From positions 1 to 51,449 of the forward strand of contig NZ_JAKZKX010000026.1 of the NCBI RefSeq assembly GCF_022808715.1: a DNA stretch of 51,449 nucleotides. Reading direction: 5' to 3'. Every line of letters starts with the position of its first letter. Positions within the stretch are counted from its first letter, which is position 1. This stretch comes from Fundidesulfovibrio agrisoli (GTDB lineage: Bacteria; Desulfobacterota; Desulfovibrionia; Desulfovibrionales; Desulfovibrionaceae). The position numbers and the translations under genes are program-made. The notes under the pieces were generated by a model that saw nothing but the letters and a program-made list of their open reading frames with translations, was not told where the DNA came from and did no database searches. Positions 39,498-45,974 of this stretch are shown in pieces.

Positions 39498-39872
39498 CTA
39501 GCTCCTGGCCACCTTCACGGCCTCGCCGATCTTGGACGTCAGGTCGTCGATGGAAAGCGGCTTGATCATGTAGTCGAACGCGCCGAGCTTCATGCCGTCC
39601 ATGCCGTCCTTGGTGGCCCCCTGCCCCGTGAGCAGGATCACCTGCACCTTGGGGTGGCGCTCGCGGATGAGCCGCAGCACCTCGAGGCCCTTGATGCCGG
39701 GCATGAACATGTCCAACACCACCACGTCGGGCTGGCTCTCGGCCATGGCCGCGAGCCCGGCTTCGCCGTCCAGCGCGACCCGGCACTCGATGCCGCGCAG
39801 TTCGAGTCGTTCCGCCAGGGTCTGGACGAAGTCCTCTTCGTCGTCCACCAGCAGGATGTTCCAATCCTTCAT
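39498..39872 (-). CDS. Stand-alone receiver-domain response regulator
   Basis: 124 aa, only a receiver: VDDEED, D54 (VVLDMFMPG), T in LLTGQG and K104 in YMIKPL. A GTG two codons before the ATG would overlap the kinase stop (GTGA); the ATG at 39872 is used. Having no output domain, it probably shuttles phosphate between the upstream Cache kinase and the phosphotransferase-like protein encoded 8 bases downstream. Confidence 0.88.
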   Translation of the reverse strand: MKDWNILLVDDEEDFVQTLAERLELRGIECRVALDGEAGLAAMAESQPDVVVLDMFMPGIKGLEVLRLIRERHPKVQVILLTGQGATKDGMDGMKLGAFDYMIKPLSIDDLTSKIGEAVKVARS

Positions 39873-39874
39873 GC

Positions 39875-41605
39875 TCACGCGGCCTCCACGGCGGCGGTGG
39901 GGGGAGCCATCACCGGCAGCAGCACGGTGAAGGTGGAGCCCACCTGTTCCTGGCTCTGCACGGAGACTTCGCCCCCGAGCCTTTTGATGATTCCGTAGGT
40001 GATCGAAAGCCCCAGCCCGGTGCCCTTGCCGCGCTTGGTGGTGAAGAAGGGCTCGAAGATGCACTTGAGCGTATCCTCGGACATGCCGCAGCCGTTATCC
40101 TGGATGGAGAAGCCCACGTGCTCCTCCCCCTGGTTCCAGGTGCGCACCGCGATGGTCCCCCTGTCGGGGATGGCGGCCAGGGCGTTGTTGAGGATGTTCA
40201 GGATCACCTGCTGCAACTGCCCCCGGTCGGACTCGATGCGCGAGAGCGCCGGGTCGAGCTCCAGGCTCAGGCTCACGTTGCGGCTCTCGGCCTCGCGCTG
40301 CAGGAAGCTGGAGGTCTCGGTGATGACCTCGTTCAGGCTCAGGGCCTCGATCTTCACGTCCATGCGCCGGGCGAAGCCGAGCATGCGGTGGGTGATGCCA
40401 CGGCAGCGCTCCACGGCGCTGATGATGGCCTCCACCTGCCGCAGGAACTTGGACTTGCCGGGGTAGTCCTCCTGGAGGGCCAGCAGATCCTTCATAAGCC
40501 CGGCCTTTTCGTTGATGATGGCCAGGGGGTTGTTGATCTCGTGGGCCACGCCCGCGGCCAGGCGGCCGATGGAGGAGAGCTTCTGCGCGTGCTCCACCTG
40601 GCGGAAGGCCAGGGCTCTGCGCTCCTCGGCCTCGCGCATGCGAATCAGCAGCAGGCCCGTGAAGCGCGAGACCACGTAGAAGGTGGCCACCACGCCCGCC
40701 AGGAAGATCACCAGCAGATCCCCGCGCAGGTTGTACCAGGCCGTGAGCACGCCCAGGCGGGGTTTGGCGGCCATGAGCACGAAGTCCGTGTTGGGGAAGT
40801 AGGCGTAGGAAAGATAGATGTCGCGCCCGGAGGGGTCCGTGGTGGAGACCACCGAGGCCTCGTAGCTCACCGGCGGCAGCGGCAGCGGGCAAGGCTGCAG
40901 CACGTCGCCGTAGAGGTAGGAGCTGGTCTGCAGGATGCCCTTGCGGTTCACCAGGAAGGCGTCCGACCCGGGCTCCAGGCCCATGGCGGCGATGATCTTT
41001 TCGAACTGCCGGGTGTCCAGGGTGGCTCGCAGAATCCAGGATTCGCCCGATTCCGCCACGTGCTGCACGCAGATGACCACGTGGGGCAGGTTGCGGTAGC
41101 CCAGGAACACGTCGGAGACGTACTTGCCGTTGGCTTGCACCTGGGCGAACCACTCCTGCCCGGAGTAGTCGCGGCCCTTGAGATCATACGGCCCGACGTA
41201 GCTGACCTGATGGCCCTTGGAGTCGATGAGGCCCAGGTCCATGAAGCCTTCGAACTCCTTGCGCATCACCCGGAAGATGCGAGCCAGGTCGCGCTCGCTG
41301 GAGAGGTCCTGGAAGCTGTAGGCCTGGGCGATGAAGGCCACGGTGGAGACGCGCTCCGCCAGGAACAGGTCGATGGAGTTGCGCGTCTTGCCCAGGATGA
41401 CGCGCAGCGGGTTCTGCACCTCGCGCGACATGGTGGCCTGGAACTCCGCGAAGTTGATCAGGGCCATGAGCAAGAGCGGCACCATGGTGACCACGGCCAT
41501 GAGGCCCACGATCTTCCGTTTGAGGGTCTCGTAGCGCTCAGGCGAGATGGAGTCCTCGCTGGTGTGCAGGTCCTTGAAGTGGCGGGTGAAGATATCACCG
41601 AGCAT
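39875..41605 (-). CDS. Membrane histidine kinase with periplasmic Cache-type sensor
   Basis: 576 aa from the ATG at 41605. TM1 ~31-53 and TM2 ~295-320 enclose a ~240-aa periplasmic sensor with FMDLGLIDSKGHQVSYVGPYDLKGRDYSGQEWF, characteristic of double Cache domains that bind small ligands. The cytosolic part has RLAAGVAHEINNPLA (H355) and an HATPase (NILNNALAAIPDRG, DNGCGMSED, GTGLGLSITYGII). No HAMP is evident. The gene overlaps the NifX-like gene by 11 bases. The ligand may be related to the exporter's substrate, but this is inference. Confidence 0.9.
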   Translation of the reverse strand: MLGDIFTRHFKDLHTSEDSISPERYETLKRKIVGLMAVVTMVPLLLMALINFAEFQATMSREVQNPLRVILGKTRNSIDLFLAERVSTVAFIAQAYSFQDLSSERDLARIFRVMRKEFEGFMDLGLIDSKGHQVSYVGPYDLKGRDYSGQEWFAQVQANGKYVSDVFLGYRNLPHVVICVQHVAESGESWILRATLDTRQFEKIIAAMGLEPGSDAFLVNRKGILQTSSYLYGDVLQPCPLPLPPVSYEASVVSTTDPSGRDIYLSYAYFPNTDFVLMAAKPRLGVLTAWYNLRGDLLVIFLAGVVATFYVVSRFTGLLLIRMREAEERRALAFRQVEHAQKLSSIGRLAAGVAHEINNPLAIINEKAGLMKDLLALQEDYPGKSKFLRQVEAIISAVERCRGITHRMLGFARRMDVKIEALSLNEVITETSSFLQREAESRNVSLSLELDPALSRIESDRGQLQQVILNILNNALAAIPDRGTIAVRTWNQGEEHVGFSIQDNGCGMSEDTLKCIFEPFFTTKRGKGTGLGLSITYGIIKRLGGEVSVQSQEQVGSTFTVLLPVMAPPTAAVEAA

Positions 41606-41954
41606 CGGAGCCTCCCTTGGCGAAGAGGATGTCCCCGGCCCGAAGCGCCCCTTTGGCGAATCGCTCGAGAGCGACCCTGGCCGGCGCCGCCACATTATCA
41701 AGTACTTCCACTCTCTTCCAGCGAAGATAATGGTAATATTCCTCTTCGATGGCCCCGCAGATCACCACGTCCACGTCCTTTTGCAGCACCAGGTCGCACA
41801 CGCCCTCGGCCGAGGGCTGCGGCAGCAGGAAGTCCGTGGTGGGTATGGCCTCCTCGCCAGGGGTGACCACGGCCACGAGTGCGGCCGAAGCCAGGTCGAA
41901 CCTGGGGGCCACCTCGTCGCGGTAGAGCGGGATGAGCACTCGCTTGCTGCGCAT
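41595..41954 (-). CDS. NifX/NifB-C-terminal-like (Fe-Mo cofactor fold) protein
   Basis: 119 aa. RVLIPLYRDEVAPRFDLASAALVAVV, then VCDLVLQKDVDVVICGAIEEEYYHYLRWKRVEVLDNV resembles the dinitrogenase iron-molybdenum cofactor-binding fold found in NifX, NafY and small archaeal/bacterial homologues. It begins one base after the PAS-AAA+ gene ends and overlaps the Cache kinase gene by 11. No nitrogenase genes are present, so a role in metal/cluster sensing or in handling a sulfur-linked cofactor is only a guess. Confidence 0.75.
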   Translation of the reverse strand: MRSKRVLIPLYRDEVAPRFDLASAALVAVVTPGEEAIPTTDFLLPQPSAEGVCDLVLQKDVDVVICGAIEEEYYHYLRWKRVEVLDNVAAPARVALERFAKGALRAGDILFAKGGSDAR

Positions 41955-41955
41955 G

Positions 41956-43116
41956 CTATTCGCCTCCCGCCCCGGCGAGGCCCAGGTGCCCAAGCAGGTG
42001 GACCGGCAGGCAGGCGGGGGGGATGTCCGGCTTGGTGCAGACCATCACCGCGAACTCCACCACGTTGCGCAGCTCGCGCACGTTGCCCGGGTAGTCGTGA
42101 GACAGGAGCAGCCTGCGGGCCTTGGGCGTGAAGCCCTCGACCTTCTTGCGGAACTTGGCCGCGTACAGCTCCAGGAAGTGCGCCAGCAGAAACTCGATGT
42201 CCTCCCGGCGCTCGCGCAGCGGCGGCAGGTCCAGGCGCAGGGCGCCCAGGCGGTAGGCCATGTCCCTGCGGAGCTTGCCCGCGCGCACCAGCTCCTCCGG
42301 GGCCACCGGAGAGGAGGCGATGAGCCGCGCCTGGGAGCGCACGTCCATGGCCGCGCCCACGGGGCGGATCAGCCCCTCGTCGGCGAACTGCACCAGGCGC
42401 ACCTGCAGGGCCTCGGGCAGCTCGCCGATGTCGGAGAGGTGCACGGTTCCGGCCCCGGCGCGCTGGAAGGCCCCGGGGGTTATCTCGCCGGTGGGCTGGC
42501 GGCGGCCGAAGATCTCGGCCTCCAGCAGTTCGGGCGACATGGGCCCGCAGTTGACCCGCACGAAGGGCTCGCGCGAGCGCGGCGAAAGCTTGTGGATGGT
42601 CTCGGCCACCGCGTCCTTGCCGGTGCCCGTCTCCCCGATGACGATCACGGGGGCGTCGGCCTGGGCCATGGCGGGCAGCAGGCGCATCAGGCGCTCCATC
42701 TGGGGGCTCTTGCCCACCAGGCCACCCACGCCGCCCGGCTCCTCCAGGCGGCGTTCCAGGGCCTTCAGCGCGCTCAGGTCCTCCACGAGGTCGAGCCGGT
42801 AGCGCATCTCCCCGCTGGCGTCGTTGACGGGCAGGGAGTGCAGGCGCACCGGAATGCGCCGACGGTGGCGGTTGACGATGTCGGTATCCGCCGGGCCCTC
42901 CTGGGCGGTGCGCTTGTGGCACAGCCCGGAGCGCAGCACATGCCGCCCCGGCACTCCGGCCACCTCGTCCCTGGCGAACCCCGTGAGCCGCTCCAGGGCG
43001 GCGTTCATGGTCACCAGCAACCCGTCCCTGTCCAGGACGGCCACCCCGAGGGGCAGGCCGTCCAGGACGGGGGCAAGGTCGAGCGATGCGAGGATTTCGG
43101 GGCTCAAGGGCTTCAT
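41956..43116 (-). CDS. PAS-AAA+ protein related to sigma-54 activators but lacking GAFTGA and HTH
   Basis: 386 aa. PAS domain ~12-115 (GVAVLDRDGLLVTMNAALERLTGF), then an AAA+ core with Walker A GETGTGKD (161-168) and the region VPPLRERREDI/NVRELRN. Where sigma-54 activators carry GAFTGA the protein reads GRRQPTGEITPGAF (204-217), and Walker B is TVHLSDIGE rather than TLFLDEIGE. After the AAA+ lid it ends without a Fis-type helix-turn-helix. It therefore should not activate sigma-54 transcription and may instead act as a sensor or partner for the nearby full activator. Confidence 0.85.
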   Translation of the reverse strand: MKPLSPEILASLDLAPVLDGLPLGVAVLDRDGLLVTMNAALERLTGFARDEVAGVPGRHVLRSGLCHKRTAQEGPADTDIVNRHRRRIPVRLHSLPVNDASGEMRYRLDLVEDLSALKALERRLEEPGGVGGLVGKSPQMERLMRLLPAMAQADAPVIVIGETGTGKDAVAETIHKLSPRSREPFVRVNCGPMSPELLEAEIFGRRQPTGEITPGAFQRAGAGTVHLSDIGELPEALQVRLVQFADEGLIRPVGAAMDVRSQARLIASSPVAPEELVRAGKLRRDMAYRLGALRLDLPPLRERREDIEFLLAHFLELYAAKFRKKVEGFTPKARRLLLSHDYPGNVRELRNVVEFAVMVCTKPDIPPACLPVHLLGHLGLAGAGGE

Positions 43117-43129
43117 CTGCTGAAGGCTC

Positions 43130-43564
43130 CTAGTGTCCGCCGCTGCCCACGATGCCGGAGGCGGCGATCGTCAGCACGATCACCTCGAGCAGAGCGATGA
43201 TCGCGAAGGAGGTGTCCTTCTTTTTCAGGAACGCCGGGATCAGCGGGATGTAGGCCACGATGGTCAGGCCGGCGAGCAGCGCGATCCCCAGGAAGTTGAG
43301 GAAGTCGCCCTTGGCGAGCAGCGTGGCCCAGCCCCAGCCCACGGGCACGTTGCCCTGCTCAAGATAGACCTTCACGGGCTGGCTCCAGAGCTGGACGATC
43401 TTGTCCATGGGCACGTGGGGGGTCATGAGGCCGGTCACGTAGAGGATGTAGGTGAGGGCCATCAGGGCCAGGCCGCCCCAGCAACCCCAGAACAGGAAGT
43501 CGGCGTAGAGGGTCTGCTCGGGCGGGGTTTCCACGCTCACGCAGGCATTGGTATTGTCAGCCAT
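43130..43564 (-). CDS. Small membrane protein linked to the TauE/SafE exporter
   Basis: 144 aa with three hydrophobic helices (~23-45, ~90-112, ~118-139) and a soluble loop between the first two (MTPHVPMDKIVQLWSQPVKVYLEQ). AAGGAG ribosome site. It lies 27 bases after the exporter and 13 bases before the PAS-AAA+ gene. Small DUF1634-like proteins often accompany TauE/SafE exporters; I cannot confirm the family. Confidence 0.72.
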   Translation of the reverse strand: MADNTNACVSVETPPEQTLYADFLFWGCWGGLALMALTYILYVTGLMTPHVPMDKIVQLWSQPVKVYLEQGNVPVGWGWATLLAKGDFLNFLGIALLAGLTIVAYIPLIPAFLKKKDTSFAIIALLEVIVLTIAASGIVGSGGH

Positions 43565-43591: not shown

Positions 43592-44566
43592 TTAGAGGCC
43601 CAGGCCCTTCATGAGCGCCTTGGCGCCGGAGAACAGCAGCACGCCGATGACCATGTACCGGATGAACTTCGGCTTGGCCTTGGCCAGCAGCTTCACGCCC
43701 GCGAACGAACCGAACATCAGGCCGATGACAGAGGGGATGGCCATCAGGGGGATGACGCAGCCCTGGTTCAGGTAGACCCAGGCGGCCGAGGTGTCCGTGA
43801 TGGACAGCAGGAACTTGGAGGTTCCCACGGAGATCTTCAGCGGAACGCCCATGACCAGGTTGAGCACCGGCACGTTGGCCCAACCGGCGCCCAGGCCGAA
43901 CATGCCCGCCATCACGCCGATGACGATGAACAGCAGCAGGCCGGGCAGGGTGCGGTGGGTCTTCCAGTCGATGACTTCGCAGGTGCCGGGGTCATAGTAG
44001 GCGCCGTTCATGCCCAGAGCCAGGCCGAGGGCGTCCTGCTTGGTGACCACGGGGCGCACCGTGTTCTTGGAGAACAGGAGCAGGCAGGCGATGAACAGGA
44101 TGGTGCCGCCCAGGGCCATCTGCACGATGTTGGTGGGCAGGGCCAGGCCGACCATGGCGCCCACGATGGCGCAACTGCTGGCGATGAGCGCCACGGGCAG
44201 GGCCAGGCGAAGGCTGGCCATGTTGCGCTTGAGCAGACCGGGGCCCGCGGCCAGCGCACCGGCCAGGGCCACCAGCAGGCCCGCGCCTCTCACGAAGTCC
44301 AGATGGAACGGGAAGAAGCCGCTCACCAGGGGGACGAACAGCACGCCGCCGCCCACGCCGGCCAGCACCGCGATGATGCCCAGCACGAAGCAGAACACCA
44401 ACAGAACGGCGGGCCACTGCCACCACGGGGCGTCGGGGGTTCCCGCCGCCTGGGAAACATCGGCCAACGCCTTGCCGCCGTCGGCGCCCGCGGCCAGGGC
44501 GATGGCCACCCAGGCCAGGCACAGGGCCAACACCACCATCGAAAGTCGCATCCATCTCGATTTCAT
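43592..44566 (-). CDS. TauE/SafE family sulfite/organosulfonate exporter
   Basis: 324 aa from the ATG at 44566. The N-terminus is hydrophobic; eight or so transmembrane helices follow, with GIIAVLAGVGGGVLFVPL and VIGVMAGMFGLGAGWANVPVLNLVMGVPLK, the two related family-defining segments. Members export sulfite, sulfoacetate or other anions, or take up taurine-derived sulfonates. In a sulfate reducer sulfite export or sulfonate handling would be plausible. First gene of the signalling cluster, with a sigma-54-like promoter in front. Confidence 0.88.
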   Translation of the reverse strand: MKSRWMRLSMVVLALCLAWVAIALAAGADGGKALADVSQAAGTPDAPWWQWPAVLLVFCFVLGIIAVLAGVGGGVLFVPLVSGFFPFHLDFVRGAGLLVALAGALAAGPGLLKRNMASLRLALPVALIASSCAIVGAMVGLALPTNIVQMALGGTILFIACLLLFSKNTVRPVVTKQDALGLALGMNGAYYDPGTCEVIDWKTHRTLPGLLLFIVIGVMAGMFGLGAGWANVPVLNLVMGVPLKISVGTSKFLLSITDTSAAWVYLNQGCVIPLMAIPSVIGLMFGSFAGVKLLAKAKPKFIRYMVIGVLLFSGAKALMKGLGL

Positions 44567-44655
44567 GTTTGCTCGCTCTCCCTTGCTTCCGAATTCATCC
44601 AGTACCGCACCGTTTGGATCGGGCGGCACGCCCCACGCTTGTTCCTTCCCGCACA

Positions 44656-44671
44656 ATCAAGAAGCGTACCA
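44656..44671 (-). promoter_or_regulatory. Candidate sigma-54 promoter of the TauE operon
   Basis: Minus-strand TGGTACG-N4-TTGAT is close to the consensus TGGCACG-N4-TTGCW. The weak point is GA in place of the near-invariant -12 GC. The predicted start point is ~44645, ~80 bases before the exporter ATG, and the tandem palindromes at 44723-44760 lie about 80-115 bases upstream of it, the usual distance for an enhancer. Confidence 0.5.
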
Positions 44672-44722
44672 GCAAAGTAACTCCATAATTCCAGATATTT
44701 GACATTTTACGGTCAACTGAAA

Positions 44723-44740
44723 GCGGCAAAAGTTTGCCGC
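44723..44740. promoter_or_regulatory. Operator palindrome 1, GCGGCA-N6-TGCCGC
   Basis: Perfect GCGGCAAAAGTTTGCCGC, 18 bp. Predicted enhancer site for the divergent sigma-54 activator. Starts 20 bp before copy 2, two helical turns. Confidence 0.8.
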
Positions 44741-44742
44741 TT

Positions 44743-44760
44743 GCGGCAAGGGGTTGCCGA
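44743..44760. promoter_or_regulatory. Operator palindrome 2
   Basis: GCGGCAAGGGGTTGCCGA, one base off the perfect palindrome. Paired with copy 1 on the same face of the helix. Confidence 0.75.
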
Positions 44761-44766
44761 TTTGGC

Positions 44767-44795
44767 TTTTCATTTCGAGGGGCAAGGGATATAAT
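44767..44795 (+). promoter_or_regulatory. Candidate sigma-70 promoter of the activator gene
   Basis: TTTTCA, a 17-base spacer and a perfect TATAAT at 44790-44795. The start point would be near 44802, just before palindrome 3, which would allow autorepression. Confidence 0.6.
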
Positions 44796-44805
44796 GCAGG
44801 GGTAA

Positions 44806-44823
44806 GCGGCATAAAATTGCCAC
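44806..44823. promoter_or_regulatory. Operator palindrome 3
   Basis: GCGGCATAAAATTGCCAC, one mismatch. Lies at about +5 to +22 of the predicted activator transcript. Confidence 0.7.
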
Positions 44824-44862
44824 CAGGATGGAGGCCTCCGCAATGCGAGGGAACCGGCCGCT

Positions 44863-45894
44863 ATGACCAGCGGCAAAAACCTGCCGTTACGGCTGCACCT
44901 GGACGACCTGCCCGAGGAGGGCGGGGGCGTCACGGCCGTGCTCATCGGTTCGCGCTCCATGCGCGACGCCCATCAGCTGGCCTCCAAGGTGGCGCCATCG
45001 GACGCGCCCATCCTGCTGCAGGGCGAATCCGGCACCGGCAAGGAGCTCTTCGCCAGGCTCATCCACACCCTCTCCAACAGGAAAGAGAAGCCTTTCATCC
45101 CCGTGAACTGCGGCGTGCTCAAGGGCGAACTCTTCGCGGACAAGTTCTTCGGGCACGAGGCCGGAGCCTTCACCGGGGCCTCGCGTCAGCAAAAGGGAAG
45201 CTTCGAGCTGGCCGGGGACGGCACGCTGTTTCTGGACGAGGTGGGCGAGATACCGCCCAACAACCAGGCCGACTTCCTGCGCGTGCTGGAGCAGCGCACC
45301 TTCCGCCGCCTGGGCGGCGAGCGCGACCTGCCCTTCGACGCCCGCATCGTGGCCGCCACCAACCGCAACCTGCTGGAGATGGTCCGCTCCGGGGACTTCC
45401 GGGCCGACCTCTACTACCGGCTCAACGTGGTGCCCGTCTCCCTTCCGCCGCTGCGCCAGCGCACGGACGACATCCCGCACCTGGCGGGCCACTTCCTGGA
45501 GCACTACGCCCACCGCTACCACCGCCCGGTTCCTGGCCTGGCTGAAGAATCTTTAGCGATCCTCGGCAAGTACGCCTGGCCCGGCAACGCGCGCGAGTTG
45601 CGCAACATGATCGAGCGGCTTGTGCTGGTGCATCCCGGAGGCAGCATAGAGCCCGACGACCTGCCCCCCGAGGTGCACAACAGCCCCCTGGCCCACAGCG
45701 CGGAGCCCCCGGGCCCGGAGAGCATGCTCCTGGAGGCTGCGGTGCGCGACGCCGAGATCAAGGCCATCTTCCGCGCCTTCAGGCACGCCCAGGGCAGCAA
45801 AGCCAAGACAGCTGAAATACTGGGTATTTCTCCCAGAACGCTGCGCTACAAGCTCAGTGAATACGGATTGGAACTGGACCGGACGGCCCGCTGA
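44863..45894 (+). CDS. Sigma-54 activator without a sensor domain (PspF-like architecture)
   Basis: 343 aa. Only ~25 residues precede the AAA+ domain. Walker A GESGTGKE (54-61), an intact GAFTGA (101-106), Walker B TLFLDEVGE and the R-finger region FRADLYYRLNVVP are present, and a Fis-type helix-turn-helix closes the protein (KTAEILGISPRTLRYKLSEYG). No receiver, PAS or GAF input domain, so activity must be set by another protein or by concentration. It stands divergent from the TauE/SafE operon and its own gene start contains an operator palindrome. It is the obvious candidate to bind the GCGGCA-N6-TGCCGC sites. Confidence 0.9.
   Translation: MTSGKNLPLRLHLDDLPEEGGGVTAVLIGSRSMRDAHQLASKVAPSDAPILLQGESGTGKELFARLIHTLSNRKEKPFIPVNCGVLKGELFADKFFGHEAGAFTGASRQQKGSFELAGDGTLFLDEVGEIPPNNQADFLRVLEQRTFRRLGGERDLPFDARIVAATNRNLLEMVRSGDFRADLYYRLNVVPVSLPPLRQRTDDIPHLAGHFLEHYAHRYHRPVPGLAEESLAILGKYAWPGNARELRNMIERLVLVHPGGSIEPDDLPPEVHNSPLAHSAEPPGPESMLLEAAVRDAEIKAIFRAFRHAQGSKAKTAEILGISPRTLRYKLSEYGLELDRTAR
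44870..44887. promoter_or_regulatory. Operator palindrome 4, within the activator coding start
   Basis: GCGGCAAAAACCTGCCGT, one mismatch, codons 3-9 of the activator gene. Binding here could block transcript elongation. Confidence 0.65.
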
Positions 45895-45956
45895 AAAAAG
45901 AATTCGCAAAGATTCAGGGTCGGTGGGATTACCGCCGCGCAAGGCGATGCGGCGTA

Positions 45957-45974
45957 GCGGCAAAATCTTGCCGC
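45957..45974. promoter_or_regulatory. Operator palindrome 5, downstream of the activator gene
   Basis: GCGGCAAAATCTTGCCGC, a perfect palindrome in the gap between the activator and a convergent receiver gene. The gap (45895-46001) holds no other feature. Confidence 0.7.

Follow-up and report, generated by a model that had tools for sequence, protein, structure and literature searches.

In Escherichia coli, PspF is a sensorless sigma-54 activator that is encoded divergently from its target, the psp operon, and limits its own synthesis, a self-limitation that was reportedly described by Jovanovic in 1997. A second activator of this kind, DVU2956 of Desulfovibrio vulgaris Hildenborough, is said to act as a switch for biofilm formation and sulfide (Zhu 2019, as described in PMC8586430). 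The present work concerns an array of five palindromes around the gene for a sensorless sigma-54 activator in Fundidesulfovibrio agrisoli, the divergent operon headed by a TauE/SafE exporter gene, and their counterparts in related bacteria. The array lies in a stretch of 51,449 nucleotides (contig NZ_JAKZKX010000026.1), hereafter the window.

DVU2956 is encoded divergently from the operon DVU2957-2964 (DVU2957-2967 in the methods), the only target given for it in the text (Kazakov et al., 2015, PMC4641369). Two of the products are DVU2958, a TSUP protein (PMC5840216), and DVU2960, an activator-like protein with GAFPGA; in the literature searched, DVU2960 is named in PMC4641369 alone and DVU2956 in eight papers. 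A motif was predicted for DVU2956, and it was DVU2956, not DVU2960, that shifted DNA upstream of DVU2957 in gels (PMC4641369). The same paper raises the signal of the sensorless activator as an open question, and lists two enhancer-binding proteins, DVU0653 and DVU0679, whose targets are non-coding RNAs located directly after the genes for these proteins.

The window locus (Table 1) shares this layout. Its activator has an AAA+ domain with GAFTGA and a Fis-type helix-turn-helix (HTH) domain, no sensor domain was found in it by domain search, and the divergent sigma-54 operon contains a TSUP gene and a gene for a PAS activator-like protein, as does the D. vulgaris locus in so far as it is described in the text passages cited. 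Among the related loci (labelled L###; genomes are labelled G###), L047, L050 and L058 have the same gene order as the DVU2956 locus, a PAS-AAA+ protein that reads GAFPGA, and an operator/promoter region very similar to the one in L057 (Nitratidesulfovibrio liaohensis). Because of the shared layout, the GAFPGA in these three loci and the resemblance to L057, the window activator is apparently the orthologue of DVU2956, an assignment made from layout and L057. DVU2894 was also considered as the orthologue and dropped, since it is given a flagellar role and another motif in the published text (PMC4641369). The locus resembles the PspF system in having a sensorless, divergently encoded and presumably self-limiting sigma-54 activator, but the protein scores 264.5 bits against the NCBIfam PspF model, below its cut-off of 443.55, and no PspA-like protein was found by domain search among the operon genes examined.

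Table 1. Features of the locus in the window; mismatches of operators 1 to 5 are counted against GCGGCA-N6-TGCCGC.
Feature	Position	Strand	Remarks
Receiver-domain protein	39498..39872	-	domain match; probably the final gene of this series
Histidine kinase with dCache sensor domain	39875..41605	-	domain match; likely same operon
NifX-like protein	41595..41993	-	weak match, below Pfam cut-off
PAS-AAA+ pseudo-activator	41956..43116	-	retains Walker A; lacks GAFTGA; Asp of Walker B replaced; no HTH found
144-aa protein	43130..43564	-	without a match in Pfam or NCBIfam
TauE/SafE (TSUP) exporter-type membrane protein	43592..44566	-	PF01925
Sigma-54-like promoter (-24/-12) of TauE operon, TGGTACGCTTCTTGAT	44656..44671	-	-12 is GA, consensus GC
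Operator 1, proximal upstream site of sigma-54 promoter	44723..44740	.	0 mismatches; centre 60 bp upstream of -24
Operator 2, distal upstream site	44743..44760	.	1 mismatch; 20 bp from operator 1; centre 80 bp upstream of -24
-10 (TATAAT) of activator's sigma-70-like promoter	44790..44795	+	-35 weak
Operator 3, just downstream of the sigma-70-like -10	44806..44823	.	1 mismatch
Sensorless sigma-54 activator, DVU2956-type	44863..45894	+	AAA+ domain and Fis-type HTH; domain matches
Operator 4, inside activator codons 3-9	44870..44887	.	1 mismatch
Operator 5, past activator stop codon; proposed auxiliary operator	45957..45974	.	0 mismatches

The palindromes are most likely sites of the activator itself, serving activation of the exporter operon, self-limitation and, in the case of operator 5, an auxiliary function. 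Bound to the side-by-side operators 1 and 2, which are about two helical turns apart, the activator would assemble its AAA+ ring, and the ring would open the sigma-54 promoter and turn on the TauE operon. On operators 3 and 4 it would hinder its own sigma-70-like promoter and the first part of its coding sequence and so limit its own synthesis, and operator 5 would most likely strengthen this self-repression through a loop across the 1.1 kb gene. A first, sequence-only reading of this DNA had described five palindromes, two of them perfect and three with one mismatch, a sigma-54-like promoter aimed at the TauE/SafE gene near copies 1 and 2, and copies 3 and 4 placed past the activator's sigma-70-like promoter and in its first codons; all of these elements were found at their places.

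At one mismatch or less the window holds 6 copies of the palindrome, 5 of them within 1.3 kb, compared with a mean of 1.29 copies overall and at most 2 within 1.3 kb in 300 dinucleotide shuffles of the window; five copies within 1.3 kb were obtained in none of the 300. When up to two mismatches were allowed there were 17 copies versus a chance mean of 14, which is not above chance, and the significance therefore rests on the clustering of good copies. The palindrome extends inward, the fuller motif being CGGCAA-N4-TTGCCG.

The position of the sites relative to the promoter was compared in 54 non-identical loci, counting sites with up to 3 mismatches and measuring from the site centre to the -24 element. 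Before this and the other counts, rows were removed whose activator showed less than 52% identity, whose sequence was identical to or contained in another, or which had no TauE in range or too short flanks. Strict regular expressions for sigma-54 sites matched none of the rows listed, so a weighted consensus was used, on which the operon promoters score at least 20.5; its first run chose other sites in L026 and L032, and a constrained run gave 61 bp for both. Of the 54 loci, 53 have a site 59-62 bp upstream of the -24 element and 43 have one at 79-83 bp; the promoter was picked among candidates having a site 40-110 bp upstream, which favours the presence of a site and not the narrow distance peaks. 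Within 110 bp of the -24 element the only further sites were one at 101 bp and one at 102 bp. GAFTGA or GAYTGA is present in 53 of 54 activators, and sigma-54 is encoded in the F. agrisoli genome. The upstream pair and the activator start overlap in L047, L050, L057 and L058, where a single pair seems to serve both purposes.

The palindrome is also nearly restricted to this locus. In the F. agrisoli genome (3.94 Mb, 52 contigs), exact GCGGCA-N6-TGCCGC occurs at 5 places, two of which have GC-rich spacers; the other three fit GCGGCAA-N4-TTGCCGC and are operators 1 and 5 and a place upstream of a HesB-like selenoprotein gene. A collection scan of species genomes gave 43 relatives of the activator, 37 of them at 53% identity or more, and neighbours of the TauE, 144-aa and PAS-AAA+ types recur among the matches listed, where the contig reaches far enough. 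Within a family set of 149 genomes an activator orthologue was counted in 39, with 7 matches of 45-47% identity set aside, and exact GCGGCAA-N4-TTGCCGC has 55 occurrences, spread over 39 genomes. The sequence-only reading had proposed a genome scan in which the palindrome should gather at activator/TauE loci, and this is what was observed: 32 of the 55 copies, from 26 genomes, are no more than 500 bp away from an activator orthologue, and 2 more, in G027, share sequences and spacing with the sites of L051 beside an activator gene that is in two pieces, which makes 34 at the activator locus. The 21 copies elsewhere are no more than background, the reversed pattern having 33 places. In both L051 and G027:C55 the activator gene gives two matches in different frames and the operators are exact; either an assembly error or a recent break would account for the split.

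Searches for a wider regulon in the F. agrisoli genome, with the exact motif, a composite operator-plus-promoter pattern and the core 16-mer at one mismatch, gave no sign of one. The composite pattern occurs there once, at the window locus; across the family, 51 of the 149 genomes have some match to it, many away from the activator locus. The one-mismatch 16-mer stands at background level in 7 genomes of the genus, with 18 versus 18 in F. agrisoli. The HesB-like selenoprotein gene was considered as an additional regulon member and dropped because the site is absent upstream of it in 5 other genus genomes that have the gene. In L004 (1086-1409 and 1802-2110, both on the minus strand) this HesB/IscA-like gene, which has an in-frame TGA read as selenocysteine (U33), stands beside a Cys-containing paralogue, and the exact GCGGCAA-N4-TTGCCGC is about 90 bp upstream of it.

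Sites at the start of the activator gene were counted in a second set of 54 loci. One was present near the start in 50, in 49 of them in the same frame, where it mostly encodes x-G-K/N-x-L-P. The Leu of this site is encoded by TTG in 46 of the 46 rows tallied, whereas elsewhere in the gene TTG makes up 8% of the Leu codons; once three rows omitted by the script were added, the figure was 47 of 49. This tally is partly built in because the rows had been selected for resemblance to the palindrome. A conserved operator in the first codons with a non-preferred Leu codon fits self-repression, as far as sequence can indicate it. Operator 3, which begins 11 bp after the final base of TATAAT, has counterparts in L075 and L094, and a site at a similar place is found in L035, L068 and L069. 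As a separate observation, a seven-codon open frame (MRGNRPL; 44843-44866, plus strand) follows a GGAGG at 44830-44834 in the window, its TGA overlapping the activator ATG, and a frame of equal length can be read at the same place in L075; it could possibly be a leader peptide or provide translational coupling.

Operator 5 starts 63 bp beyond the activator stop, between convergent genes, and is therefore upstream of no gene start. In a set of 52 loci, sites with up to 2 mismatches were sought in the interval that begins 20 bp ahead of the activator gene's end and reaches 190 bp beyond it, and 15 loci had one; 200 permuted half-sites averaged 0.11 loci and never exceeded 2. The gene that follows apparently varies among the lineages in which the site is retained, judging from the open reading frames without a family search, and the site seems to go with the activator gene. 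That operator 5 instead serves a neighbouring gene or a small RNA is unlikely: the D. vulgaris proteins DVU0653 and DVU0679 offer a precedent (PMC4641369) and L018 has a same-strand gene after the site, but in the window the next gene is convergent, the genes that follow the site vary as just described, and the best sigma-54-like score at 40-110 bp in either direction was below 20 in 15 of 15 loci, against at least 20.5 at the operon promoters. A sigma-54 promoter of its own was accordingly discarded for operator 5. The same-strand gene of L018 begins about 90 bp after the activator stop, beyond the post-stop operator, and by eye (no family search was made) its start resembles a second TauE/SafE-type protein. 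At G094:C29:207373-207388 an exact CGGCAA-N4-TTGCCG lies about 1.25 kb beyond the activator match, farther than the usual post-stop site.

The assignment of the palindromes to the activator, with the roles proposed above for them, has to be set against several observations, besides the selection effects already mentioned for the promoter and the codon tally. The loci are related, and the counts are not independent. A distal site with up to 3 mismatches is missing in 11 of the 54 loci, a start site in 4 of 54 and a post-stop site in 37 of 52, and because of this last figure the post-stop site is not essential to the switch. In the first weighted-consensus run, in which 2 loci got another site, the -12 element was GA in 24 of the 54 loci, GC in 16, GT in 9 and GG in 5; since GA is found in the window and in 24 of the loci, the promoters are not all near consensus. 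The -35 of the activator promoter is weak, and the start-site Leu codon is CTG in the window and in L075. Taken with these points, the proposal made in the sequence-only reading, that one protein activates the exporter operon and limits its own synthesis, gains support from the concentration of copies at the locus, the nearly fixed distance between pair and promoter and the start-codon site, the self-repression being the presumptive part. Copy 5 was given no role in that reading, which also left unmentioned the target operon's unusual PAS-AAA+ protein.

This protein would hardly be able to activate sigma-54 alone, because GAFTGA, the Walker B Asp and usually the HTH are lost. GAFTGA was found in none of 36 PAS-AAA+ sequences, and Walker A is recognisable in all 36; the Walker B Asp is replaced in 33 of 33 sequences among those listed, the window protein reading LSD. 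No Pfam HTH was found in the window protein, and a profile made from the HTH of the activators rose above the inclusion threshold in 2 of 36, those of L047 and L058, the protein of L050 being cut by the contig end. Absence of GAFTGA is also mentioned in a paper on NtrC (PMC12421884). In 38 of 39 family genomes a PAS-AAA+ relative is encoded no more than 5 kb from the activator, and in G135, a fragmented assembly, the sole match is on another contig. The PAS-AAA+ protein is thus a candidate to sense for the sensorless activator and to restrain it, a partnership suggested by gene content and motif loss. Pairs of related sigma-54 activators have precedents in HrpR/HrpS, FleQ/FleT and the VnfA paralogues, in which two related AAA+ proteins may cooperate, one of them without domains. 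FleT acts through FleQ. The pair proposed here differs from these: its DNA-binding member has no sensor domain and is intact, and the putative partner retains PAS, has no GAFTGA and usually no HTH. FleT is without both outer domains (PMC3162934), and VnfA paralogues interact (PMC9542535). Tentatively, and with considerable doubt, a one-component sigma-54 regulator may have been split in two, the activator providing DNA binding and sigma-54 contact and the PAS-AAA+ protein a sensing and restraining subunit of the ring, with the activator gene also enclosed in a repression loop by its operators at the start and stop codons. Matches to the 144-aa protein were obtained in 64 of the 149 family genomes, compared with 39 that have the activator; this greater frequency suggests that the exporter module may also occur under other control.

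Binding of the activator to the window sites is a prediction, and the sites might instead be bound by a different regulator, such as the PAS-AAA+ protein or an unlinked factor. We consider this quite improbable, given that the exact copies concentrate beside the activator gene, that DVU2960 did not bind (PMC4641369) and that an HTH is found in so few of the PAS-AAA+ proteins. Each copy could also form a hairpin of 6-7 bp in RNA, operator 4 being situated within the initial codons and operator 5 past the stop, and a T run follows the post-stop copy in L021; control of translation or termination by such hairpins is nevertheless highly improbable. The upstream pair shares the motif, keeps a nearly fixed distance from the promoter and, being upstream of the activator's TATAAT, is probably outside the activator mRNA; most of the post-stop copies listed are without a T run, L021 being an exception, so that a terminator function of operator 5 found no support; and the orthologue binds DNA in vitro (PMC4641369). 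Chance or base composition, for which only the near-expected window total at two mismatches and the equal 16-mer numbers could be invoked, is practically excluded by the clustering, geometry and conservation at one locus.

The operator sequence is itself unlikely to be new, because a motif was predicted and binding demonstrated for the orthologue DVU2956 in the published text (PMC4641369), although the match to the DVU2956 logo is an assumption. Loci of the L057 group have CCGGCAACAAATTGCCGG with a degenerate copy beside it, which is compatible with the 'three conserved half-sites' of a legend in that paper (PMC4641369). Both the window and D. vulgaris have a sensorless GAFTGA activator divergent from a sigma-54 operon that includes a TSUP protein and an activator-like protein. 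The separate start-codon operator, the post-stop operator, the nearly fixed spacing at about 60 and 81 bp and the family-wide pseudo-activator with its loss of GAFTGA are seen here and do not appear in the running text of sections 6, 7, 13 and 21 of PMC4641369 or in the passages covered from its other sections.

The layout is common to many sulfate-reducing bacteria, and the switch is most likely partly known in Desulfovibrio vulgaris, that is, part of a published regulon. Besides tying a palindrome to its regulator and target across many Desulfovibrionales, with operators placed roughly 60 and 81 bp upstream of the -24 element, the locus offers, in the pseudo-activator of the target operon, a specific candidate for the sensor that the activator lacks, and self-repression may take an uncommon form here, as the post-stop operator suggests.

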